Assembly: GCA_029820295.1 (NCBI GenBank)
Contig: JALGVA010000038.1
Coordinates: 1 to 37,095 of the forward strand
DNA length: 37,095 nucleotides
Source of the DNA: Candidatus Zipacnadia bacterium
GTDB lineage: Bacteria; Armatimonadota; Zipacnadia; Zipacnadales; UBA5352
Direction of reading: 5' to 3'
Position 1 is the first letter of the stretch. Every line of letters starts with the position of its first letter. Shown piece after piece: positions 8,202 to 22,484 of this stretch. The notes below the pieces were generated by a model. The model was not told where the DNA came from and did not search any database. It saw only the letters and a program-made list of their open reading frames with translations. The translations under genes and the position numbers were made by a program.

Positions 8202-9560
8202 GTGAACGTGATCCTGATCGTCTCCGATACCTGCCGCCGCGACCGCATCGGCGCCTACGGCTGCGAGTGGATGAACACGCCCTCGCTGGACTACCTCGCG
8301 TCGAAGTCGTTCGTCTTCGAGCGCGCCTACTGCGCCTCGTTCCCGACCGTCCCCCACCGCGTGGACGTGCTGACCGGCCGCTTCGGCTTCCCGTTCTACG
8401 GCTGGCAGCCCGTGCCCGAGGGCATGTCGTCGCTGCCCGAACCGCTGGAGGCGCAGGGCCTCGCCACGCAGCTCATCTACGACACGCCCGGCATGTTCGG
8501 TTCGCAGTGCTACCAGGGATTCCGCGGCGTGAAGTACCAGGCGGGGCAGGCGGCGCGCTGCGAGGAGATGATCCGGCTGGTGCTGCCCGTCGAGCTGCCC
8601 TGCGACGCCGACCGCGTCCGCTCGCCCGAGGCGATGCTGGCGCGCATGCGCGACGCCACCTGGTGGCAGGACGAGAGCGACAGCTTCGTGGCGCGCACCT
8701 CGATGGCCGCCGCGCAGTGGTTGGAGGAGAACTGCGGCGCGCAGGACTTCCTGCTGTGGGTGGACACCTTCGACCCGCATGAGCCGTGGCTGTCCCCGCT
8801 GTGGTACGCGCGCATGTACTACCCCGACTACGTCGGCCAGGACTTCATCCAGGCGCCCTACGACTACCTCGACGACCGCTTCACCGAGGAGGAGGTGCGC
8901 TGGATGCACGCGCGCTACTGCGGCGAGCTGACCATGATGGACCGGTGGATCGGCGAGGTCATCGACCGCTTCTTCGACCTGGGCTTCGCTGAGGACACCG
9001 CGCTCATCTTCACCTCCGACCACGGCTTCTACCTCGGCGAGCACAATCGCGCGGGCAAGCACACCATCGTCCGCGAGCCGTGGCCGCTCTACGACGAGGT
9101 CGCGGCGGTGCCGCTGATGGTCTACGTGCCGGGGGTCGAGCCGGGGCGCTCCGACGCGCTGGTGCAGGCGCCGGACCTGCGCGCGACCATCATGGAGCTG
9201 ATGGGCGCGGAGGAGCCCGCGGACGTGCATGGGCGCTCGATCATGCCGGTGGTGCGCGGCGAGGCCGACGGCCACCGCGAGTTCGCGGTGTCGTCGGGCT
9301 ATCTCGATGAGACGCGCGACCCGCTGGTGACGCGCATCGCGGTGAACTCCGCGGACGGCTGGTCGCTGCACTTCCACCCGAGCTACGAACCCGAACTCTA
9401 CTACCTGCCCGAGGACCCGGGCCAGCTCAGCAACGTCATCGCGGACAACCGCGAGCAGGCCGCGCGCCTGCACGTCGGCTTCCTCGACTTCCTGCGCGAG
9501 GTCGAGGCGCCTGCGGTGACCATCGAGCGCCTCGGGAGCTTCGAGCGGCGCGCGGGCTAG
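8202..9560 (+). CDS. Sulfatase-fold (alkaline phosphatase superfamily) hydrolase with Thr nucleophile position
   Basis: A 452-residue cytoplasmic enzyme of the sulfatase fold. MNVILIVSDTCRRD gives the first metal Asp (D9), TFDPHEPW lies mid-protein, and SDHGFYLGEH gives the second metal site. In classical sulfatases the AYCxSPxCxPSR segment supplies the Cys turned into formylglycine. Here AYCASFPTVPHR aligns with no gap and places Thr49 where that Cys should be, followed by TVPHR and LTGR. A Thr nucleophile is the rule in phosphatases and phosphodiesterases of the superfamily, so phosphoester or phosphonate hydrolysis is as likely as sulfate ester hydrolysis. GTG at 8202 has GAGGTG six bases upstream; the ATG at 8196 abuts that motif and is less likely. 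The stop overlaps the convergent secretin gene's stop in one CTAG. Confidence 0.8.
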   Translation: MNVILIVSDTCRRDRIGAYGCEWMNTPSLDYLASKSFVFERAYCASFPTVPHRVDVLTGRFGFPFYGWQPVPEGMSSLPEPLEAQGLATQLIYDTPGMFGSQCYQGFRGVKYQAGQAARCEEMIRLVLPVELPCDADRVRSPEAMLARMRDATWWQDESDSFVARTSMAAAQWLEENCGAQDFLLWVDTFDPHEPWLSPLWYARMYYPDYVGQDFIQAPYDYLDDRFTEEEVRWMHARYCGELTMMDRWIGEVIDRFFDLGFAEDTALIFTSDHGFYLGEHNRAGKHTIVREPWPLYDEVAAVPLMVYVPGVEPGRSDALVQAPDLRATIMELMGAEEPADVHGRSIMPVVRGEADGHREFAVSSGYLDETRDPLVTRIAVNSADGWSLHFHPSYEPELYYLPEDPGQLSNVIADNREQAARLHVGFLDFLREVEAPAVTIERLGSFERRAG

Positions 9561-11296
9561 GGCTGCGCATCCTCTCCGGGCTCGACCGAGCGGTAGAACT
9601 GCGCGTCCGCCTCCTCCACCGCGGCGGCGGCTACGGCCGCTGCCGCCTCCGGGTCTATCACCCGCGGCGTGACGAAGAACACCAGCTCGGTGTCGGTGGA
9701 GCGCGTGCGCGAGCTGGTGAACAGCCCGCCGATGATCGGGATGTCGCTCAGAATCGGGATCCGCCGCTCGACCGTATCAGTCTGGCGCTGGGTCAACCCG
9801 CCGATGACGATGGTCTCGCCGTCGCGCGCGCGGATGTTGGCCTCGGCCCGGCGCGTGCTCAGGCGGGGGATGCCGGTCTCCGGGTTGATGTCCACGATGT
9901 TGCTGACTTCGCACTCGATGTAGCTGGTTATCTCACCGTTCCCGCCCGTCCAGGGCACGATGGTCAGCGAGACGCCCACGCGCACCGTCTCGATGCGCTC
10001 CTGCTCCCTGCCGGAGCGGAAGTAAGTCATGCGGATGAAGCGGTCGCGGCCGATGAAGATATTGGCGCGCTCACCGTTCATCGCCGCCATGCGCGGCTGA
10101 GCGTGAATGCGCGCCTGACCCGAGCTGAGCAGCGCGCGCACGCGCCCGGAGAGCGTCTCGGTCTCGACCACGCCGCCGGAGACCCCGTAACTCTCGCCCT
10201 CGGCGTAGCGCACATCGCCGCTGAGTGAGCTGCCGCTGGTCTGCCAGTCCTCGCCGTGGTACGCCCAGTCGAGGAAGCTCTCGGACGAGCCGTCGCGCGT
10301 GATCTCCACCGCGAGCACCTCGACCATGATCAGCGGCGGCGCGATGTCGATGGCGCGCAGGTCGCGCCCGATCTTCTCCAGCATCTGCGTGGGCGCGGTG
10401 ACCACGATGGAGTTCTGCTGCGGGTTACGCCGCAGATACTCGATCAGGAAGGGCGGCAGCAGGCTGGCGGCGTCATCCACCTGCAGGTAGGTCAGCGGAT
10501 AGGACTCGGTCGCGGAGCGCCCGTAGGTGGGCAGGTCGGTGGGAATACCCTCGCTCAGCATCTTCACGTCGCCGACGGTGGAGATGGCCAGGCCGTAGCC
10601 GCTGGCGATGCCCTGCAGCACCTGATCGGCGGTCAGGCCGGTCACGTTCATGCTGACCTCGCGCTTCACCCGGTCATCGACCGCGACGTTCACCCCCGCG
10701 GCGCGCGCGATCTCAGCCACCACGCGGTGCAGATCGGCCTTGAGCGCGCGCACGGTCAGCAGGCCGTCGGCGTACTCCACCTCGATCGTGCTTTCATCAT
10801 CGTCCTCGGCCGTGGTGGCCTCGCCCGGGGCGCCCGTGTCGCCGTTGCCTCGCCGGCGGGGCACGGTGCGCTCGGTGCGCACATTGATGACCAGCTTCCG
10901 CGGATCGCTCTGCTCGGGGATGCTGAACTCCGACGCGTCCACCAGCACGATGCGCATGTTCAGGCCGACGCCGTTGGGGGCGTCGGGCGGCGTGGTGAAG
11001 CTGATGTGGCTGATCGGGTGCGCGTTCTCGGGCCGGATCAGGTCATCGCTGAGCGCCGAGCGGGCGTTCTCGAGGTCGATCACGATCTCGGTGACCGCGC
11101 GCCAGTCGCCGGTGCGCACGCGGTACTGCAGCATGCCGTCGGCCTCGACGGTGATGCTGGCGCCGTTGCTCAGGCCGGCGGTCTTCACGCTGGTGATCGA
11201 GCAGTAGGCGTCCTGGGCCACCGCCGGAGCGATCGCGAGCAGGATAAGTGACGTCGCAGCGAAGATCACGGGCGCGGCGCGTTGATGCAGTGCCAT
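9557..11296 (-). CDS. Secretin-family outer-membrane protein (third gene of triple-secretin operon)
   Basis: A 579-residue protein with a signal peptide (cleavage near AVAQ). Residues about 28-140 form a beta domain beginning with a Cys (YCSITSVK) that is also present in the next gene upstream. An acidic linker follows, then an STN-type domain (about 165-235), a NolW-like repeat around YPLTYLQVDDAASLLP and a C-terminal secretin domain (about 370-540). The family signature is intact: IPILSDIPIIGGLF. Secretins form multimeric gated pores in the outer membrane for type II/III secretion, type IV pili or phage exit. No ATPase, pilin or inner-membrane platform gene is in the window. The start has GGAGG and overlaps the upstream gene's stop by one base (TGATG). 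The stop shares CTAG with the convergent sulfatase-fold gene. Confidence 0.85.
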   Translation of the reverse strand: MALHQRAAPVIFAATSLILLAIAPAVAQDAYCSITSVKTAGLSNGASITVEADGMLQYRVRTGDWRAVTEIVIDLENARSALSDDLIRPENAHPISHISFTTPPDAPNGVGLNMRIVLVDASEFSIPEQSDPRKLVINVRTERTVPRRRGNGDTGAPGEATTAEDDDESTIEVEYADGLLTVRALKADLHRVVAEIARAAGVNVAVDDRVKREVSMNVTGLTADQVLQGIASGYGLAISTVGDVKMLSEGIPTDLPTYGRSATESYPLTYLQVDDAASLLPPFLIEYLRRNPQQNSIVVTAPTQMLEKIGRDLRAIDIAPPLIMVEVLAVEITRDGSSESFLDWAYHGEDWQTSGSSLSGDVRYAEGESYGVSGGVVETETLSGRVRALLSSGQARIHAQPRMAAMNGERANIFIGRDRFIRMTYFRSGREQERIETVRVGVSLTIVPWTGGNGEITSYIECEVSNIVDINPETGIPRLSTRRAEANIRARDGETIVIGGLTQRQTDTVERRIPILSDIPIIGGLFTSSRTRSTDTELVFFVTPRVIDPEAAAAVAAAAVEEADAQFYRSVEPGEDAQP

Positions 11297-13014
11297 CAGC
11301 TCTGATCCTCCGAATCCGCCTCATGCGGGCGGGAACGTGCGTACTCCGCGGAGATAAGAAAGACGATCTCGGTCGCCTCCGCCTCGCGCTGTCGTGACTC
11401 GGTGATGTCGCGCAGCAGCCACGCGTCACGGAAGGGCTCCGGGCCGCTGCGCCGGTCATCCTCGCTGCCTCGCACCATCCCACCGCCCACCACCGCGGTG
11501 TCGCCGTCGGCCATGATGAGGGTCGTGCGTGCCTCACGTGTATCCACGAGCGGCGCGTCAGAGCCCACGCCCCGGAAGGTGCTCACCGACAGGCGCAGGC
11601 GCACCTCGATGGTGCCCGCCCCCATCGGCCGCGGGCGGATGTTCAGGTTCACACCGGCCTCGGCCGAGCGCAACTGCGCCTCTTCGCCCGACGAGAGGTA
11701 CACGTAGTACTGGCGCCGGCCCACGAACAGGTCGGCGCGCTGGCCGGGCCTGACCACCAGCGACGGGCGCGCGCGCAGGCGCAGGGCGCGTGAGGTGTCC
11801 AGCGCGCGGATGTTGGCCACCCACTCGTCGAAGGGCTCGTCGCCGTTCTCGATGCGGATGGTGCCCTCAGAGCCGTCGATCTCGACCCGTGTGTCATCGC
11901 CGCCCACCAGGCGCCACAGCCTGCGTGCGGTCTCCGCGTCACTGATCTCCACCACCGCAGTGCGCACGCGGATGAGCTGCGACGGCCGGTCCAGGTCCTC
12001 GATGTCCTCGCCGATGCGGTCGAGGAGCTGGCTGGGCCCGTAGGCGATGATGCTGTCCCCGCTCTCCGAGGCCTTGAGATAGCGCAGCAGGAAGTTGGGC
12101 AGCAGGTCGATGGCGTCACGGGCCTCGATGTAGCGCAGCGGGTAGATGCGCGTACCGCCGGCCGCGTAGGGCGCCAGGCTGGTGGGCAGACCGTCGCTGA
12201 CCAGCCACGCGCCGTCATCCTGCGAGACCGTCAGGCCGTAGCCCGCGGCCACCGAGGTCACGAAGCGCGCCAGCGGCACGGCCTCCATGTGCACCGTCGC
12301 CAGACGCTTGACGCGGTCATCGACGTACACGGTCGCCCCCGCGGCCGCCGCCACCTCCGCCGCCAGCTCCTCCAGCGGCACGTTGACGCAATCGACGGTC
12401 AGCAGCCCGTCCTCCACGCCGACCGACAGCTCGGGCGTCAGGCCCTGCTCGCGCCGCGGCCTGGCGGGCGCGCGCACCTCCTCGTGGCGGTCGCTCCACA
12501 CCAGGATCTGCAGCTCGCGCCCCGACTGTGACTTGCGCACGTCGAAGGCAATCGTGCCCCAGTCCACCCACCAGTCGAAGTCGTCCCAGTTATCCACCGC
12601 CAGCGCGTGCACGATGGCCGGCTCGTAGAGCACCAGGCGCACGTCCAGGCCCACGCCCTCGCGCGAATCCGGCGGCGTGGTCATCTGCAGATGGCTGACC
12701 GGGTAGGTGCCGATGTCGGCGAAGGTGCCCACCAGCGAGCGTGCGTTGGTGATCCGGATGGGAATCTCGCGCTTGCCTACGCGGTTCCAGTTGCCGTCCA
12801 GGTCCTGCTCCACGAACTCCCCAATGGCCACCTCGACGTGCAGCAGACCGTCGGCCTTGAGCGTGATCTCGACCGCGTTGCTGAGCTGCTTGACCGTGAT
12901 GTCGGTGATGTTGCAGGCCACACGCGTCTGCGCCGGCGCCGGGCGTGCGACCACCAGCGCGGCCAGCACGGCGACCGCGAGGCCGGCGGCACAACGCCGG
13001 ACGCGACTACTCAT
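11296..13014 (-). CDS. Degenerate secretin-family protein (middle gene of the operon)
   Basis: A 572-residue protein with a signal peptide ending near RPAPAQ. It copies the layout of its downstream neighbour: an N-terminal Cys-starting domain (ACNITDITVK, about 32-150), an STN-like domain (DDRVKR, about 195-270), a NolW-like segment (YPLRYIEARDAIDLLP) and a C-terminal secretin-like barrel region (about 390-540). The secretin signature is lost: where the others have P-I-L-S-D-I-P-x-I-G-x-L-F, this has PEPFRDAWLLRDI, and the preceding GG is followed by GMVRGSEDD. It may be a non-pore subunit or scaffold, or a decaying paralogue; the intact frame and coupling argue against decay. The ATG at 13014 has GGAGG, overlaps the upstream gene by 8 bases and is preferred to one 17 codons earlier. 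Confidence 0.8.
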   Translation of the reverse strand: MSSRVRRCAAGLAVAVLAALVVARPAPAQTRVACNITDITVKQLSNAVEITLKADGLLHVEVAIGEFVEQDLDGNWNRVGKREIPIRITNARSLVGTFADIGTYPVSHLQMTTPPDSREGVGLDVRLVLYEPAIVHALAVDNWDDFDWWVDWGTIAFDVRKSQSGRELQILVWSDRHEEVRAPARPRREQGLTPELSVGVEDGLLTVDCVNVPLEELAAEVAAAAGATVYVDDRVKRLATVHMEAVPLARFVTSVAAGYGLTVSQDDGAWLVSDGLPTSLAPYAAGGTRIYPLRYIEARDAIDLLPNFLLRYLKASESGDSIIAYGPSQLLDRIGEDIEDLDRPSQLIRVRTAVVEISDAETARRLWRLVGGDDTRVEIDGSEGTIRIENGDEPFDEWVANIRALDTSRALRLRARPSLVVRPGQRADLFVGRRQYYVYLSSGEEAQLRSAEAGVNLNIRPRPMGAGTIEVRLRLSVSTFRGVGSDAPLVDTREARTTLIMADGDTAVVGGGMVRGSEDDRRSGPEPFRDAWLLRDITESRQREAEATEIVFLISAEYARSRPHEADSEDQS

Positions 13015-14383
13015 CGGCGGGTTCCTCCATGGGCGCGGGCACCTCGACCGGAAGGGCGTCCTCACCCGGGTCGGCCTCGCCCTCGGGCAGGAAGCGGCGC
13101 CGGATGGCCTCCTCCTCGTCGGGAGGCAGGTGCCCGGTCTGTGAGAGCAGCCGCGCGGTGACGAAGATGGCCAGATCCACGGTCGTGTTCTCGATGGAGT
13201 GCGAGGTGAAGAGCGGGCCGATGAGCGGGATGTCGGAGAGGATCGGGATGCGCGAGCGCACCTCGCGGCTCTCGTCCTGGCGCAGGCCGCCGATGATCAG
13301 CGTCTGGCCGTCGCGCACGCGCACCGTAGTCTGGGCCGAGCGCGTGGTCTTCTCGGGCAGGCCGGTGAGCTCCGACACCGCGCCCAGAGTCGAGATCTCC
13401 TCCTCGATGCGCAGGATGATCTCGCCGTTGCCGCCGGTAAGTGGGCGCATGTCGAGGCTTACGCCCGCGTCGATGGAGTTCTGCGTGCCCCGGCCCGGGA
13501 TCGACACGGGGATCTGCAGGTACTGCCGGGTGCCGATGAAGATCTCGGCGCTGGAGCCGCTGACGGTGGCGATGCGCGGGCAGGCGCGCACCCGCGCCTT
13601 GCGCGCATTCACCAGGGCGTCGATCCAGGCGTAGAAGTCGGTGGTCAGCCGGGCGATGGCGGTGAAGTTCAGGTCGCCGGTGAGCGAGTCCACCGCCAGC
13701 CCGAGCTTGTGGTTGGACCAGCCGATCTGCGTGGAGAAGGTGTCGGTGTCGATATCCGTGAACTCGACCACCAGCACGTCCAGCATGATCTGCGCCGGCG
13801 GCTGGTCGAACTGTTCGATGTCCTCCCGGAAGCGGCGCAGCACGGCGTCCGGCGCCGACAGCACCACCGCGTTCTGCGACGCGTTGGCCTTGACGTACTT
13901 GGTGAGGAAGGCGGGCATCAGCTCACGCGCCTGCCCGGCCGACACGTACTGCGTGGTGTAGCTGCCGATGCTGGAGAGCAGGTAAGAGGACGGCGAGTTG
14001 GGAATGCCCTCGGACAGGATGAAGATCTCATCCACCTCGGCGAAGGACAGCCCGTAGGTGTCCACTATGGTGGCGAGGATCTCACGCGGTTGCTTGTCCA
14101 CGAGGTTGAGCGTGACCTTGCGGTCCACCGTGTCATCGACGATGATGGCCAGGCCGGTCTCGCGCGCCAGCTCGCTCAGCAACTGGTGGGCGTCGGCGTT
14201 CACCGCGAACAGCGAGACGCCGCCCTCGCCCACGGTGATCGAGATCGACGAGGTGTCCGCCTCTTCCGCGGCGACGGCCGCGAGCGCGCACATCGCCGCC
14301 AGGCACAGCGCGATGGCGGCGCGCATCAGAAGGCGCCTTCCCGGGGGGATGCCCCCGGTGAGCGCCCGTGCAGGTGGGTTCAT
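13007..14383 (-). CDS. Secretin-family outer-membrane protein (first gene of triple-secretin operon)
   Basis: A 458-residue protein and the shortest of the three. It has a signal peptide, an STN-type domain (about 45-115, with DDTVDRKVTLNL), a NolW-like segment (TTQYVSAGQARELMPAFL) and a secretin domain (about 235-400) with the intact signature IPILSDIPLIGPLF. It lacks the extra Cys-starting N-terminal domain of the other two. All three share an LS/DEG-I/L-P motif after the STN domain, which suggests duplication within the locus. The start at 14383 has GGAG 11 bases upstream; an internal ATG at 14326 right before the hydrophobic helix (MRAAIALCL) is a reasonable alternative. The C-terminus is a Glu/Pro-rich tail. 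Divergent from the large secreted protein gene. Confidence 0.85.
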   Translation of the reverse strand: MNPPARALTGGIPPGRRLLMRAAIALCLAAMCALAAVAAEEADTSSISITVGEGGVSLFAVNADAHQLLSELARETGLAIIVDDTVDRKVTLNLVDKQPREILATIVDTYGLSFAEVDEIFILSEGIPNSPSSYLLSSIGSYTTQYVSAGQARELMPAFLTKYVKANASQNAVVLSAPDAVLRRFREDIEQFDQPPAQIMLDVLVVEFTDIDTDTFSTQIGWSNHKLGLAVDSLTGDLNFTAIARLTTDFYAWIDALVNARKARVRACPRIATVSGSSAEIFIGTRQYLQIPVSIPGRGTQNSIDAGVSLDMRPLTGGNGEIILRIEEEISTLGAVSELTGLPEKTTRSAQTTVRVRDGQTLIIGGLRQDESREVRSRIPILSDIPLIGPLFTSHSIENTTVDLAIFVTARLLSQTGHLPPDEEEAIRRRFLPEGEADPGEDALPVEVPAPMEEPADE

Positions 14384-14683
14384 CAGGTCTCAGCTCCGAA
14401 GTGACCGACGTGTCGATCGTGTCACGGCTTCACATGCTCTACGCGCCGTCCCGGACGCGCTGCGCCGGTCGCACACTACCATGCGCGCGGCCGACCCCGC
14501 CGCGCCGACTGCGTCGCATGGCGCGCAGCCGCCCTCGCGGGCGGGTCCCGCCGCGCAATGAGTACCGGACGGGTGGGAATTCCGCGCCGCCTCGCTCCCC
14601 TCCTTCTCCTCAACGAGGCAGGCGCAAGAAAAGTTGCAGACGAAACCGATTGCGTCACCACAACGTGCCCGGAGGCGATCCCG
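14384..14683. other. 300-base divergent intergenic region
   Basis: This gap lies between the outward-reading secretin operon and the large secreted-protein gene and must carry promoters for both. GTGAC/GTCAC half-sites flank 15 bases at 14401-14425, close to the secretin start, and could be an operator, but the symmetry is short. The only AT-leaning patch is 14625-14665 (AAGAAAAGTTGCAG...), where a promoter for the plus-strand gene is plausible; I found no good -10 at the right spacing. GGAGG at 14671-14675 is the downstream ribosome binding site. No gene seen. Confidence 0.4.
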
Positions 14684-17600
14684 ATGCGCACAATGATTTG
14701 GCTGATGACCATGCTGGTCATCCTGTCTGCGGCTCGCATGGCCGGGGCGGACGCGACGGCCATCAAGCGCGTCCTGAGCACGGAGGACGCACAGAGCGTG
14801 AACCTGCTGGGCAATCCGAGCCTCGAGCAGGTCGAGGACGGGATGGCGGTCGGCACCGGCGTCTGGGACGAGGGCTACGAGATCGACGACACCGTCGCCC
14901 GCACCGGTGAGCGCTCCGCCCGCATCAGCACGGACGACCCGGAACGGCAATTCGGCGTGTTGTTCTCCGTGGACCTGAACCAGACGCAGCCGACGCCGGT
15001 GGTGGTCAGCGCCTGGAGCCGCGCGCAGGACGTGAGCGGCACGCCCGCCGGCGGCTACTCGCTGTGGGTGGACATCGACTTCGTCGATGGCTCTCACCTG
15101 TGGGGGCAGAACGCGCCCTTCGCGTGCGGCAGCCACGATTGGCAGCAGCGTACCCTCCCCATCGTCCCCAGCAAGCCCATCCGCACCATCCTCATCTACG
15201 GGCTCTTCCGCGGCAAGACCGGCACGGTGTGGTTCGACGACTTCGTGCTGACTCAGGTCGAGCTGGCCGAGGGCGCGACCGTCTTCAACGGCGTTCCCGT
15301 GCTCGCCGAGCACCCGACAGTGGAGCCGACAGAGGCCATCACGCTCGCGACCGAGGATGGTCTGCAGTTGCGCATCGATGCCGCCACGGGCGTCGTCGTC
15401 GGCCCCGATGGCGCGGTCGGGGGCTTCTTCTGGCGCGATGTGCAGGCCGGCTCGGACTTCCGCCAGCCGCGCGCCGCCGTCGAGCGCGAGGGCGAAGACG
15501 TGCTGCTGCGTGCCCGCGACGACGAGCTGCAGCTTGAGCTTGAGGCGCGCCTGTCGCCGCGCGCGGAGCACATCGCGGTCAGCGGCCTGGTGCGCGACCT
15601 CACCGGCGAGGATCGCGCGGTCAGCGTCTATTTCGCCGCGCCCTGGAACGCCGTGGGCGGCACCTGGCACGACGATCAGCGCCTCACGCGCACCATCGCG
15701 CCTGGCATGACCTGCGAGAACGTGGCGCGCACCGGCGCGGGGCCGCGCGGCGTCTCATCGGCCTACCCGCTGGCGTGCGTCACCACCCAGGACGCCGGCC
15801 TGGGCATCGCCACCCCGATGGACCGGCCGCGCATCATTGACCTCGCCTACGACGCAGGCAGCCGCGAACTTTATGCGGCCGTGCACCTCGGGCTCTCGGC
15901 TCTCACCGAGCGCTTCCCCTCGCAGGCCGACTTCTCCCTGGCGCTCTACGCCGTGGACCCGCAGTGGGGCTTCCGCGACGCCCTGGCGCGCTACTGCGCG
16001 CTTTACCCGCAGTGCTTCACGAAGCGCAACCGCCGTGAGGGCATCTGGATGCCCTTCACCGACGTGAGCACCGTGCAGGGCTGGGAGGACTTCGGCTTCG
16101 CCTTCCACGAGGGCAACAACAACGTGGCCTTCGACGACCAGGCGGACATCGCCAGCTTCGTCTACTGCGAGCCCGTCAGCAACTGGATGCGCATGGCGCC
16201 CGAGGTGCCGCGCACGCGCGAGGCCGCCATGAGCATGCTGCTCGAGCAGGCGGCGCAGGGCAACCCGGACGCCCTCGCCACGGTCAGCTCGGCCGTGTAC
16301 AACGCGCAGGGCGAGGTGGTGGTTGACTGCATCGACGCCCCGTGGTGTGACGGCGCCATGTTCACCAACAACCCGTCGCCGAACCTGCTGAGCGACCACC
16401 CCGACGCGATCACGCAGGGCCGGATGGTGTCCGAGCGCGCCTGGCGCGCCTTCGAGCGTGCCGGTCGGCTCGGCAACTGGAACGGCTACGACCTCGGCTT
16501 TACCTTCGTGCCCGTTGCCGGACGCGAGAACTCGGGCGCGATCCGCTGCACCGCCGACGACCCCGGCCAGCGCCACGGCGCCGCGCAGACGGTGGTCATC
16601 AACCAGGAGCACGCGCGGAACCTGGTGATCAGTGGCTGGAGCCGCGCCGAGGGCGTGCAGGCGGGCGAGGACAGCGACTGGTGCCTCTACGTGGACATCA
16701 CCTACGACAATGGCGAGAACCTGTGGGGGCAGAAGGCCATCTTCGATCCGGGCATCGAGGGCTGGCAGCAGGCCGAGACGGTCATCGAAGTTACCCGGCC
16801 GGTCAGGAATGCAGCGGTCTACGCGCTGCTGCGCGGCGAGGTCACCGGCACCGTATACTTCGACGACCTCTTTCTGGGCGAGGAGGGCGGCGAGACGAAC
16901 CTGCTGCGCAACCCGAGCTTCGAGCCGGCAGAGCCGGGGGAGCTGGACGGCATCTACATCGATTCCTCCGAGATGGCCGCCACCGTCCCCAACTACCGCC
17001 GCGACCACTGGCGCTACAGCACGATTCCGCTGACCTTCACGCGCGACGGCAGCGTGTGCCAGCTCGAGATCTTCAACTCCGTCGAGTTCGCGCGTAGCCT
17101 CGCAGAGCCGCTGCACGACCGCGGCCTGCTCCTGTTCGCCAACAGCACGCCCGGCCGCTTCCCGTGGCTGGCGCCGTGGCTGGACATCATGGGCACGGAG
17201 ACCAACTGGGGGCCGGGCGGCCGCTACACGCCGAATTCGCCCGCAGTGATGAACTACCGGCGCGCGTTGTGCTACCAGCGCCCCTACCTGCTCCTGCTCA
17301 ACACCGTGTACGAGGATTTCCGCCCCGAATGGGTGGAGCTGTACTTCAAGCGCTCGGTAGCCTGGGGCATCTTCCCCAGCTTCTTCAGCCACAACGCCGC
17401 CGATGACCCCTACTGGCAGCGCCCGGCGCTCTACAACCGCGATCGCCCCCTCTTCCAGCGCTACATCCCCGTATGCGCCGCCCTGAGCCGTGCGGGCTGG
17501 GAGCCCCCCACATACGCGCAGAGCGACGATCCGGCGATCTACGTCGAGCGCTTCGGGGGGAGTCCGGCGGCCGGCGGCGAACTCTTCTTGACGATATTCA

Positions 17601-17788
17601 ACGACAGCCACGAGCAGCGCGCGGCGACGGTCACGGTCAACACGGCGGCGTTGGGGCTGGCGCAGGTCTCCGTCACCGAGGTGCTGCCGGAGGAGGGGGC
17701 GGCGGTGCCGACCGGACCGGACGGTTCATTCGAGGTGGTGCTGGCGCCCGAGGACCTGCTGGTCGTGCGCCTCACAGATGGGGCGTAG
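14684..17788 (+). CDS. Large secreted glycan-associated protein with duplicated binding-like domain
   Basis: A 1034-residue secreted protein (signal peptide MRTMIWLMTM...RMAGA). Two copies of a jelly-roll, carbohydrate-binding-like unit are visible. The first (about 60-200) and the second (about 605-745) share WSRA, LWGQ, a W-Q-Q step and a terminal V-W/Y-F-D-D motif. NLLGNPSLE (40-48) and NLLRNPSFE (about 739-747) mark the module edges. Between and after them are regions rich in aromatic residues, including WLPWLDI-like and TETNWGPGG segments near 820-850, that could form a TIM-barrel glycosidase, though no catalytic motif is certain. The last 90 residues look like a beta-sandwich (LFLTIFNDSHEQRAATV). 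GGAGG precedes the ATG by eight bases. Likely role: binding or cleaving an extracellular polysaccharide. Confidence 0.65.
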   Translation: MRTMIWLMTMLVILSAARMAGADATAIKRVLSTEDAQSVNLLGNPSLEQVEDGMAVGTGVWDEGYEIDDTVARTGERSARISTDDPERQFGVLFSVDLNQTQPTPVVVSAWSRAQDVSGTPAGGYSLWVDIDFVDGSHLWGQNAPFACGSHDWQQRTLPIVPSKPIRTILIYGLFRGKTGTVWFDDFVLTQVELAEGATVFNGVPVLAEHPTVEPTEAITLATEDGLQLRIDAATGVVVGPDGAVGGFFWRDVQAGSDFRQPRAAVEREGEDVLLRARDDELQLELEARLSPRAEHIAVSGLVRDLTGEDRAVSVYFAAPWNAVGGTWHDDQRLTRTIAPGMTCENVARTGAGPRGVSSAYPLACVTTQDAGLGIATPMDRPRIIDLAYDAGSRELYAAVHLGLSALTERFPSQADFSLALYAVDPQWGFRDALARYCALYPQCFTKRNRREGIWMPFTDVSTVQGWEDFGFAFHEGNNNVAFDDQADIASFVYCEPVSNWMRMAPEVPRTREAAMSMLLEQAAQGNPDALATVSSAVYNAQGEVVVDCIDAPWCDGAMFTNNPSPNLLSDHPDAITQGRMVSERAWRAFERAGRLGNWNGYDLGFTFVPVAGRENSGAIRCTADDPGQRHGAAQTVVINQEHARNLVISGWSRAEGVQAGEDSDWCLYVDITYDNGENLWGQKAIFDPGIEGWQQAETVIEVTRPVRNAAVYALLRGEVTGTVYFDDLFLGEEGGETNLLRNPSFEPAEPGELDGIYIDSSEMAATVPNYRRDHWRYSTIPLTFTRDGSVCQLEIFNSVEFARSLAEPLHDRGLLLFANSTPGRFPWLAPWLDIMGTETNWGPGGRYTPNSPAVMNYRRALCYQRPYLLLLNTVYEDFRPEWVELYFKRSVAWGIFPSFFSHNAADDPYWQRPALYNRDRPLFQRYIPVCAALSRAGWEPPTYAQSDDPAIYVERFGGSPAAGGELFLTIFNDSHEQRAATVTVNTAALGLAQVSVTEVLPEEGAAVPTGPDGSFEVVLAPEDLLVVRLTDGA

Positions 17789-17823: not shown

Positions 17824-17851
17824 TTGCATTTCACAGCTATTCTGGTGTAAA
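17824..17851 (+). promoter_or_regulatory. Putative sigma-70-like promoter of the GyrA-CTD-like gene
   Basis: An unusually AT-rich patch in a GC-rich window carries TTGCAT (17824-17829) and TGTAAA (17846-17851) with a 16-base spacer. The expected transcript start is about 17858, leaving a leader of roughly 40 bases that contains GGAGGT at 17885-17890, seven bases before the ATG. Both boxes match the consensus imperfectly, so the call rests on spacing and composition. Confidence 0.45.
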
Positions 17852-17897
17852 GTTGTGCATAGCAGAGCGCACTAAACGAGGCATGGAGGTAGATAGA

Positions 17898-18209
17898 ATG
17901 GCTGCCATGGCGTTGGTTATCACGGAGAACGGGTACGGGAAGCTGGTCTCACCGGACGAGTTCAGGGAGCAGAAGCGTGGCGGCGGCGGCGTCACCGGCT
18001 ACAAGGTGACCGAGGACAGCGGCCCGGTCGCGTGCGTGATTCGCGTGGAGACGGGCAAAATGCCGCGTGAGCGCGTGCTCATCTACACGGCCGCGGGGCG
18101 CGCGATCCTCACGCCGGTAGACGATATCTCCGAGCGCAGCCGCTCCGCCGGCGGCGTGAAGCTCATCGACCTGCAGGAGGGCGACAGGGTGGTCGGTGCG
18201 GCCTTCTAG
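17898..18209 (+). CDS. Stand-alone two-blade GyrA C-terminal-domain-like mini-protein
   Basis: A 103-residue cytoplasmic protein made only of two DNA gyrase A C-terminal beta-propeller repeats. Blade 1 (about 5-55) has LVITENGYGK and EFREQKRGGGGV. Blade 2 (about 58-103) has VLIYTAAGRAI, SRSAGGVKLIDL and GDRVVGAA. By memory these line up with the last two blades of GyrA (NGYGKR..., then GR-TQGV-LI). Residues 25-31 (QKRGGGG) resemble the GyrA box Q-R-R-G-G-K-G that drives DNA wrapping. No gyrase breakage-reunion domain or Tyr is present. The ATG has GGAGGT at ideal spacing and a promoter-like patch upstream, so it is a real short gene and not the end of a broken gyrA. Possible roles: small DNA-bending protein, gyrase modulator or nucleoid factor. 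A longer start at 17883 would spoil the ribosome binding site. Confidence 0.8.
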   Translation: MAAMALVITENGYGKLVSPDEFREQKRGGGGVTGYKVTEDSGPVACVIRVETGKMPRERVLIYTAAGRAILTPVDDISERSRSAGGVKLIDLQEGDRVVGAAF

Positions 18210-18455
18210 GCGCTCGACCCGATCGGGACTCAGGCCGGCGGCCCGACGCGGGCCGCCGGCCTCGCCATGTACGCCCGCGTATCGGCCTGTCGCGCACGCG
18301 GCTGTCATGTCGTGCGGACTCGAATGACCGGGCGGGCAGGGGCACACCGGAATGACGCCCTGGTGCCGCCCTCGCGCGGAGGGAAAGGCACCGGCCACGG
18401 GGAAGAGATGAAGGTCGCCGCAGACAGCAGCCTCGGCGTGGAAGGGGCACGGTCG

Positions 18456-20189: not shown

Positions 20190-22484
20190 ATGACCGACCG
20201 ATGGCTGCGTTCGGGCGCTGCGCTGATCGCGACGCTTGCGGCTGTATGCACCGCCGGCGCGGAGAACCTGGCGCTCGGGCGGCCGTACACGCTGGTGCCG
20301 GCGCCGAATTATCAGCTCTGCACCGACGCGGGCGACCTGACCCAGCTCACCGACGGCGCCTTCGTGGGCCTCGGACAGCTCTGGATCGATCCGGGCTGCG
20401 TGGGCTGGAAGCTGTCCGTCGATGGCGAGGCCGACGTGGTCATCGACCTGGGCGCGGCGCAGGCCATCGACGCGGTCCGGGTGCGCTCCGCGGCCGGCCC
20501 CAACGCCGACGTCTACCTGCCCTCAGCCGCGTTCGCGGTCAGCGACGATGGGCGGCGCTTCCACCTGGTGGCGCGCGTTGAGACCATCGATGACCCGCAG
20601 CTCTCCCGCCGTTGGGTGGAGGCTACCGACCTGCGCACCCGCGGGCGCTACGTCCTGGTGCGGCTGCGCGCCAACGGCGTGTTCGTCTTCACCGACGAAG
20701 TGGAGGTGCTCTCCGGCGAGCACGACCCGGCGACGGTGACGCTGCCCGAGCAGACCATCGAGCCGCTGGTGCCCGAGATCACGCGCACGCCCCTGCAGAC
20801 GCGGCTGCTGCGCGACCTGGAGGGCCTGCGAGCGGCGCTGCAGCGCATCAGCGATCCGGCGGACCTTGCCACGCGCATCGATGCGGCGCAGGCGATCGTC
20901 GGGGCCCTCGAGGAGACGACCGGCGAGGCGGCGTCGAGCGCGGAGGCGGCGGTCGCGGCGATCCATGCTGACGTCCTCCAGGCCCTGCGCGGCGAACGGC
21001 AGATAGTGGCGTGGGTCGTCGATCCGTATGCGCCCGCATCGCCGCGCGACCTGCCCCCTGATCAGCCCGAGGACGCCGTGCGCGTCACGGTGGCGCAGAA
21101 CGCGCACGCCTCAGCGGCCGCCACCATCGCCAATCTGACCGACCAGCCGATGGAGGTCCCGGTCGCGCTGGAGGGCCTCGATGGGCTGGCGCGCCTGCGC
21201 GAGGCCCGCTTCATCGCCACCCGCCAGGGCAATCTGCTGGCCGATGCCCTGCCGCTGCTGGACGATGGCGCGATCACGCTGCCGCCCCGCGAGGCGCGCC
21301 AGGTGTGGCTCGACATCGCCTCCGGCGAGGCACCGGCTGGTGAGCACTCCGGGGCGCTCACGATCGGCGACGCGCACATCCCGGTCGCAGTCACGGTGGC
21401 GCCCGTACGCCTCCCTGACGACCTCCCCTACTCCAGCTATTCATGGCAGTATCTCGACACCTGGCCCGCGCTGAAAGGCATCGAGGATGCGGCCATTGCC
21501 GACCTGCGCGCGCATTACACCAACGTGAACATCCTCACCAGCAACTCCGTGCCGTGGCCGACCGAGGTGGACGAGCAGGGCAACATGACCGCGCCGCTCG
21601 ACTTCGAGTTCCACGACCGCATGGTCGAGCTGGGCGCACCGATCAGCGACCACGGCATCGCGTTCTTCGCCGGCCTCTCACACAGCCGCCGCGGCTTTGA
21701 CCGGTTCGAGCGCTTCAGCGAGCCATGGCGGCGGCTCTTCGCGCAGTGGCTGACCGCCTGGGTGGCGCACCTGCAGGAGATCGGTGTGGGCTACGACCGC
21801 TTCATCTTCTACCCGCTGGACGAGACCATCGACGAGGTCTACGTGCAGATCGCGACCCTCACCCGCGAGGTCGATCCCCGGGTGCGGCTCTTCGCAGACC
21901 CGCTGGCTCGGGACTCCGACGAGCGCCTGCGCGCGGTCCTCGATCTGGTCGACATCTGGTGCCCGAACCTGCCGGCCTACGAGCGTCGGCCGTGGCAGCT
22001 TGAGATGATGCGCGACACCGGCGCGACCGTCTGGTCCTACACCGTCGGCCGGCGCGAATCCGACCCCTACGCCCACTACCGCCTGCACCACTGGCGCGCG
22101 TGGCGCGATGGGGCCGAGGGCGCGGGCTTCTGGGCCTACGCGCAGGGCGGCACCTGGCAGGACGATGACCTGTGGGACGACTTCAGCGTCCCGAACTCCG
22201 ACTACGCGGTCATCTACACGCTCACCGGCGCGCCGGAGGACGTGAGCCGCGCCGAGGCGATCATCCCCGGCAAGCGCTGGGAGGCATGGCGTGAGGGCAT
22301 CGAGGAGTGGATCTACCTGTCCATGCTCGAGCAGGCCAGCGCGGATCGCGATGACGCAGAGAACCAGCGCGCGTGGCTTGCGGCCACCGTCGCCGAGGTG
22401 CTGGGCGAGCCCGCCGACACATCGCGCGCGGCGCACGCCCGGGCGGAGATGCTGGCGCGGCTCGCGGCGGGGCGGGCCCCCTGA
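20190..22484 (+). CDS. Secreted GH123/DUF4091-like glycoside hydrolase with discoidin-like domain
   Basis: A 764-residue secreted enzyme with signal peptide MTDRWLRSGAALIATLAAVC... Residues about 25-175 form an F5/8 type C (discoidin-like) domain (ENLALGRPYT, VVIDLGAAQAIDAVRV). A helical linker spans about 195-275, an Ig-like domain about 290-395, and the catalytic barrel about 405-700, matching the DUF4091/GH123 layout (WQYLDTWPALKG; YPLDETID with D544-E545; FWAYAQGGTWQDDD). In GH123 an adjacent Asp-Glu pair supports substrate-assisted hydrolysis of N-acetyl-galactosamine units; the D-E here is the natural candidate. GGGAGG lies eight bases before the ATG. The gene ends in a convergent gap with a strong hairpin. 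Confidence 0.75.
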   Translation: MTDRWLRSGAALIATLAAVCTAGAENLALGRPYTLVPAPNYQLCTDAGDLTQLTDGAFVGLGQLWIDPGCVGWKLSVDGEADVVIDLGAAQAIDAVRVRSAAGPNADVYLPSAAFAVSDDGRRFHLVARVETIDDPQLSRRWVEATDLRTRGRYVLVRLRANGVFVFTDEVEVLSGEHDPATVTLPEQTIEPLVPEITRTPLQTRLLRDLEGLRAALQRISDPADLATRIDAAQAIVGALEETTGEAASSAEAAVAAIHADVLQALRGERQIVAWVVDPYAPASPRDLPPDQPEDAVRVTVAQNAHASAAATIANLTDQPMEVPVALEGLDGLARLREARFIATRQGNLLADALPLLDDGAITLPPREARQVWLDIASGEAPAGEHSGALTIGDAHIPVAVTVAPVRLPDDLPYSSYSWQYLDTWPALKGIEDAAIADLRAHYTNVNILTSNSVPWPTEVDEQGNMTAPLDFEFHDRMVELGAPISDHGIAFFAGLSHSRRGFDRFERFSEPWRRLFAQWLTAWVAHLQEIGVGYDRFIFYPLDETIDEVYVQIATLTREVDPRVRLFADPLARDSDERLRAVLDLVDIWCPNLPAYERRPWQLEMMRDTGATVWSYTVGRRESDPYAHYRLHHWRAWRDGAEGAGFWAYAQGGTWQDDDLWDDFSVPNSDYAVIYTLTGAPEDVSRAEAIIPGKRWEAWREGIEEWIYLSMLEQASADRDDAENQRAWLAATVAEVLGEPADTSRAAHARAEMLARLAAGRAP

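Follow-up and report, generated by a model that had tools for sequence, protein, structure and literature searches.

The two-blade gene and its signals

The window, that is, the whole stretch of DNA that was analyzed (37,095 nucleotides), corresponds to contig C14 in a metagenome-assembled draft genome (5.6 Mb) of the Zipacnadia type within the Armatimonadota; the class Zipacnadia was named previously (PMC10290634). The following features were located in and around a short gene for a protein related to the GyrA C-terminal domain (CTD), here called the mini-gene and mini-protein:

17824-17829, + strand: predicted -35 element TTGCAT; TTGC(A/G)T aligned in 9/9 members of family f1
17848-17853, + strand: predicted -10 element TAAAGT, 18 bases past the -35 element; TA(A/G/C)AGT in 9/9 members of family f1, spacing 17 to 18
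17885-17890, + strand: Shine-Dalgarno sequence GGAGGT, seven bases ahead of the ATG, read from the sequence
17898-18209, + strand: two-blade GyrA-CTD mini-protein gene; ATG at 17898, stop TAG at 18207-18209, 103 aa
17910-18053 (approximate residue limits), + strand: mini-protein blade 1, equivalent to GyrA blade 5; R27 is GyrA R766, in the beta2-beta3 loop
18072-18206 (approximate residue limits), + strand: mini-protein blade 2, equivalent to GyrA blade 6; R82 is GyrA R817
18232-18262, + strand: GC-rich hairpin just 3' of the gene, terminator-like, -34.0 kcal/mol, without a T-run in the window

The frame, from ATG to TAG, has the coordinates and product given by the first-pass annotation, and its description as two GyrA blades and nothing else agrees with the Pfam search, in which two PF03989 matches make up the entire 103-aa product (E 2e-23) without a further domain. 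The whole protein scored 82 bits against a PF03989 cut-off of 27, and each blade exceeded the cut-off when the host's own genome was searched. The similarity is to the very end of GyrA, covering positions 703 to 795 of the 798-position NCBIfam model PRK05560 and residues 745 to 835 of E. coli GyrA (PDB matches). The mini-protein is not a member of the GyrA families TIGR01063 and NF004043, scoring 64 to 66 bits, over the last two blades only, versus cut-offs of 877 to 902. The PF00521 breakage-rejoining core of the host genome lies not in the mini-protein but on contig C130, with a separate and complete gyrA (827 aa, six blades, intact box QRRGGRG). A GyrA-type CTD is a six-blade pinwheel with a QRRGGKG-like box in blade 1; the mini-protein has two blades, and its best GyrA match was always blades 5-6, not the GyrA-box blade. 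The motif QKRGGGG does occur at residues 25 to 31, but its earlier reading as GyrA-box-like needs correcting: the proper box belongs to GyrA blade 1, and QKRGGGG is a degenerate blade-5 version.

The predicted promoter, TTGCAT-N18-TAAAGT, is very probably real, since both elements and their spacing recur in 9/9 aligned family f1 members while the neighboring bases diverge. The evidence for it is this alignment across relatives because scores of single sequences were not above shuffled controls: for most sequences they were no better than shuffled, and the match in the window was at chance level (22% of shuffles equaled its score). Of the promoter originally proposed, the -35 element TTGCAT was retained, while the -10 element TGTAAA after N16 had been misplaced. 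Convincing sigma-70-like promoters also precede the mini-gene in three other genomes (G022, G013, and G018). The GGAGGT, already noted as well spaced, has counterparts in GGAG-type sites ahead of nearly all orthologues with upstream sequence available; stable GC hairpins lie 3' of nearly all orthologues, and several of these have T-runs.

Within a family, the neighbors of the mini-gene are shared (downstream of the copy in the window, they encode a DUF6159 protein and an FMN reductase), but comparison of gene neighborhoods found no neighbor kept between families and thus no operon partner. The mini-gene is most likely a one-gene transcription unit. This is in line with its earlier description as a solo gene with its own promoter, given the -35 and -10 elements conserved in 9/9 family f1 members and a frame that in 30 class genomes does not form the tail of gyrA. 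Long antisense open reading frames, common to the neighborhoods, were rejected as genes, being GC-rich shadows of coding frames. Elsewhere in the window, three successive secretin-domain genes (PF00263) of differing lengths lie in one row (9557-14383, - strand), an unusual tandem. Two large proteins (1076 and 764 aa), neither of which has a Pfam match at E 1e-4, are encoded at 14558-17788 and 20190-22484 (+ strand), in the same stretch as sulfatases.

Distribution, origin, and selection

Orthologues were recovered as a single copy from 30 of the 46 class genomes, a count that takes in some genes cut by a contig end. Where complete, the free protein has 100 to 104 aa, and its termini are conserved across orthologues. 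The mini-gene is absent from whole lineages (families f2, f9, and f10 and genus g13) and is therefore dispensable. Pairwise dN/dS values of 0.03 to 0.22 nevertheless indicate protein-level (purifying) selection.

By maximum likelihood, the mini-proteins group in a single clade (support 99/98) distinct from GyrA blades 5-6; the inner branching of this clade largely tracks species families. One old origin from GyrA blades 5-6, followed in Zipacnadia by mainly vertical descent with losses, is well supported. A single A-type copy was found outside the class (G066:C25:13283-13585); it groups with G041, comes from a draft with 7% contamination, and could reflect either mis-binning of the contig or a transfer.

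A two-blade piece of this kind is what one would expect to remain of a truncated gyrA 3' end. However, the probability that the locus is a broken gyrA end, a pseudogene, or an assembly artifact is close to nil, as it is contradicted by the intact gyrA elsewhere in the genome and by 30 separate assemblies in a single clade with dN/dS far below 1 and a conserved promoter and start. The first-pass annotation had held that close homologues always ending a gyrA frame would speak against a solo protein; instead, the gene is free in 30 class genomes.

An A-type pattern scan covered 84,980 species genomes. Among the best 80 matches listed, those above 46% identity were only from Armatimonadota, followed by alphaproteobacterial and other matches at 36 to 44% identity that were GyrA-like in look. 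A mobile or phage origin was considered and rejected, as tblastn against phages and plasmids gave only matches below 60% identity. Among the matches listed, plasmid matches with a named product were gyrA, save one 524-aa CTD-containing protein of Halorhabdus, and most phage records were unannotated; the mini-gene was not found in the viral contigs searched. Paper searches found no description of solo two-blade GyrA-type proteins. The mini-proteins make up a genuine and conserved family that apparently has not been described before. In it, GyrA pinwheel blades have left the topoisomerase to become a stable two-blade gene under selection, about 300 bp long and smaller than any free GyrA domain that we found described.

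Predicted fold and DNA-contact residues

Structure prediction of the monomer, a check proposed in the first-pass annotation, gave two pinwheel blades at high confidence (pLDDT 93.6, pTM 0.84) when AlphaFold was run with an alignment of 33 sequences, superseding a poor single-sequence model (pLDDT 57). Since 17 of the 33 aligned homologues resemble GyrA segments, the model may lean toward the GyrA fold. It superposes on residues 740 to 838 (blades 5-6) of S. Typhi GyrA with a Z score of 15.3 and 1.5 Å over 99 residues, and all 15 PDB chains matched by Foldseek at E <0.001 are GyrA or topoisomerase IV CTDs. The mini-protein is like blades 5-6 of the GyrA CTD (PF03989; PDB 5ztj, 1zi0, 3l6v, and 1suu) in sequence, predicted fold (1.3 to 1.7 Å), and DNA-contact arginines; unlike GyrA, it has no topoisomerase core, blades 1-4, true GyrA box, or acidic tail. 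In pinwheels, two of each repeat's four strands belong to the next blade (PMC3797127). The third strand of both repeats was scarcely assigned as a strand in the monomer model, which would fit missing partners, without proving them.

In the alignment to 5ztj (numbered with an offset of 528 that we set), S. Typhi R766 and R817 align to R27 and R82 of the mini-protein. Alanine mutants of R766 and R817 bind DNA more weakly, with KD values of 221 and 204 nM versus 122 nM, although the strongest DNA-holding Salmonella arginines, R667 and R716, are in blades 3-4 and not 5-6 (PMC7210945). Position 27 is arginine in 27/28 family members, R82 and K15 are each present in 28/28, and position 88 is lysine or arginine in 28/28. 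R80, an extra residue specific to this family that lies in the second blade's DNA-facing loop (the loop of R82), is present in 27/28. As judged from alignment and model, the two-blade fragment is shown to keep GyrA's one DNA-bending arginine per blade. The net charge of the mini-protein is about 0, but the GyrA CTD of the host likewise carries only +1. The "conserved basic rim" that had been anticipated is found in K15, R27, R80, R82, and K88 only, not in the charge of the protein overall.

The near-neutral charge would suit a fold kept for some other use, such as protein-protein docking, with no DNA role, as would the "GYGKR" motif, in which K15 is kept and the arginine at residue 16 is replaced by V, L, or I. 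We consider this quite unlikely, given that K15, R27, R82, and K88 are invariant or almost so and that the extra R80 is placed in a DNA-facing loop.

Proposed ring assembly, possible function, and other solo groups

The best explanation as a whole, to which we assign a probability of about one-half, is that the mini-protein is a small DNA-wrapping protein, probably self-associating and most simply a C3 trimer, with a minor role in the nucleoid or in buffering local supercoils. That the gene arose from GyrA blades 5-6 and was then inherited vertically as a one-gene unit is well supported. Its product would most likely be a small wrapping protein that binds DNA with no strict preference for sequence, the DNA bending along the blade rim. 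Because pinwheel blades swap hairpins and a chain of only two has an unpaired edge at either end, the chains probably associate head to tail. The simplest outcome would be a C3 trimer in which the six-blade ring is restored, with DNA bent round its rim. The angle between GyrA blades 5 and 6 is 60.6° (PMC7210945); at this step per blade, each chain would span ~120°, and three of them would complete a ring of six blades. By analogy, the geometry allows a C3 homotrimer like that of the Ralstonia solanacearum lectin RSL, in which a two-repeat chain forms six blades (PMC11883740). Pizza2, a designed two-repeat chain, likewise forms a six-blade ring as a homotrimer (PMC7337062). RSL and Pizza2 are true beta-propellers and not hairpin-swapped pinwheels, are sugar-binding or artificial, and serve as an analogy for assembly only. 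The first-pass annotation's argument that a closed propeller requires self-association is reasonable, but self-association into a closed ring is not the only option, as the chains might also form open polymers, dock onto gyrase, or persist as stable open monomers.

A DNA-wrapping trimer might act alongside gyrase and HU, as proposed for Gac of Borrelia burgdorferi, which wraps DNA and for which a nucleoid-protein role has been suggested (PMC10127594). Replacement of HU was rejected as a role, with HU present in nearly all carriers and noncarriers alike. Gac and the mini-protein are alike in having free GyrA-type pinwheel blades, no topoisomerase core, and their own promoter and Shine-Dalgarno sequence. 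Gac is, however, an entire C-terminal DNA-binding domain of about 35 kDa, expressed from an internal promoter within the gyrA frame, whereas the mini-protein has two blades and is fixed as its own family in a separate gene, on a different contig from the full gyrA on C130. Free GyrA pinwheel blades are thus already known; what is new here is two blades rather than six, in their own gene. If the DNA-wrapping trimer is true, it would add a nucleoid protein of a new kind and show from nature how a repeat ring can be built as an oligomer.

The mini-protein might instead modulate gyrase, its blades competing with or docking onto the GyrA CTD (e.g., extending or capping the spiral) and tuning supercoiling versus decatenation with no wrapping on its own. 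Its nearest relatives are the last two GyrA blades, whose DNA path it would share. In the class genomes, moreover, only one type IIA A-subunit, GyrA, seems to be present, with no ParC-like second copy (two apparent double A-subunits have the look of a single gene with a split frame), which leaves both tasks to gyrase. Yet the mini-gene is not beside gyrA, and relatives with the same single gyrase do without it. Identity between G000 and G019 is 48% for the mini-protein versus 73% for GyrA blades 5-6, and a tight partner need not diverge faster. Modulation of gyrase is therefore possible but doubtful; if true, it would provide a built-in regulator where gyrase seems to be the sole type IIA topoisomerase.

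The first-pass annotation had suggested looking for further free two-blade proteins and for their position relative to gyrA. Besides the family in 30/46 class genomes, where the gene is not beside gyrA, two more groups were encountered in other Armatimonadota. The second group has 97 aa (MDVVIVTANGMVKRTS...) and occurs in seven genomes of family f38; the third, of about 98 to 106 aa, comes from five genomes divided between families f19 and f32. Their loci are as follows:

Second group, L206-L212: G247:C1:1466439, G248:C23:67340, G249:C67:7363, G250:C265:6806, G251:C229:12, G252:C151:4275, G253:C361:710
Third group, L213-L217: G118:C11:47149, G119:C99:5112, G120:C155:3994, G117:C7:29891, G054:C33:16640

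A common origin of the three groups is possible (support 72/64). Solo two-blade proteins are a recurrent form within Armatimonadota. We tentatively suggest that free two-blade pinwheels self-assemble by intersubunit hairpin exchange into a DNA-wrapping six-blade ring, a minimal nucleoid protein derived from the gyrase tail, in up to three solo groups of this phylum.

Borrelia Gac, a free GyrA CTD, represses ospC (PMC10127594), and one solo two-blade group, the third, shares an apparent operon with two response regulators. Both observations would suit a Gac-like local transcription regulator preferring certain operators, which we regard as unlikely for the mini-protein, as no target site is known and its genomic neighbors vary between families. 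The apparent operon of the third group was seen at the two loci examined (G119 and G120), where the order is a dihydrolipoamide-dehydrogenase-like gene, two single-domain response regulators, the two-blade gene, and a dihydrodipicolinate-reductase-like gene. In the f38 group, the palindrome AGAACGTTCT or a close variant lies ~60 to 80 bases upstream at the four loci whose upstream sequence was read and is perhaps a candidate operator.
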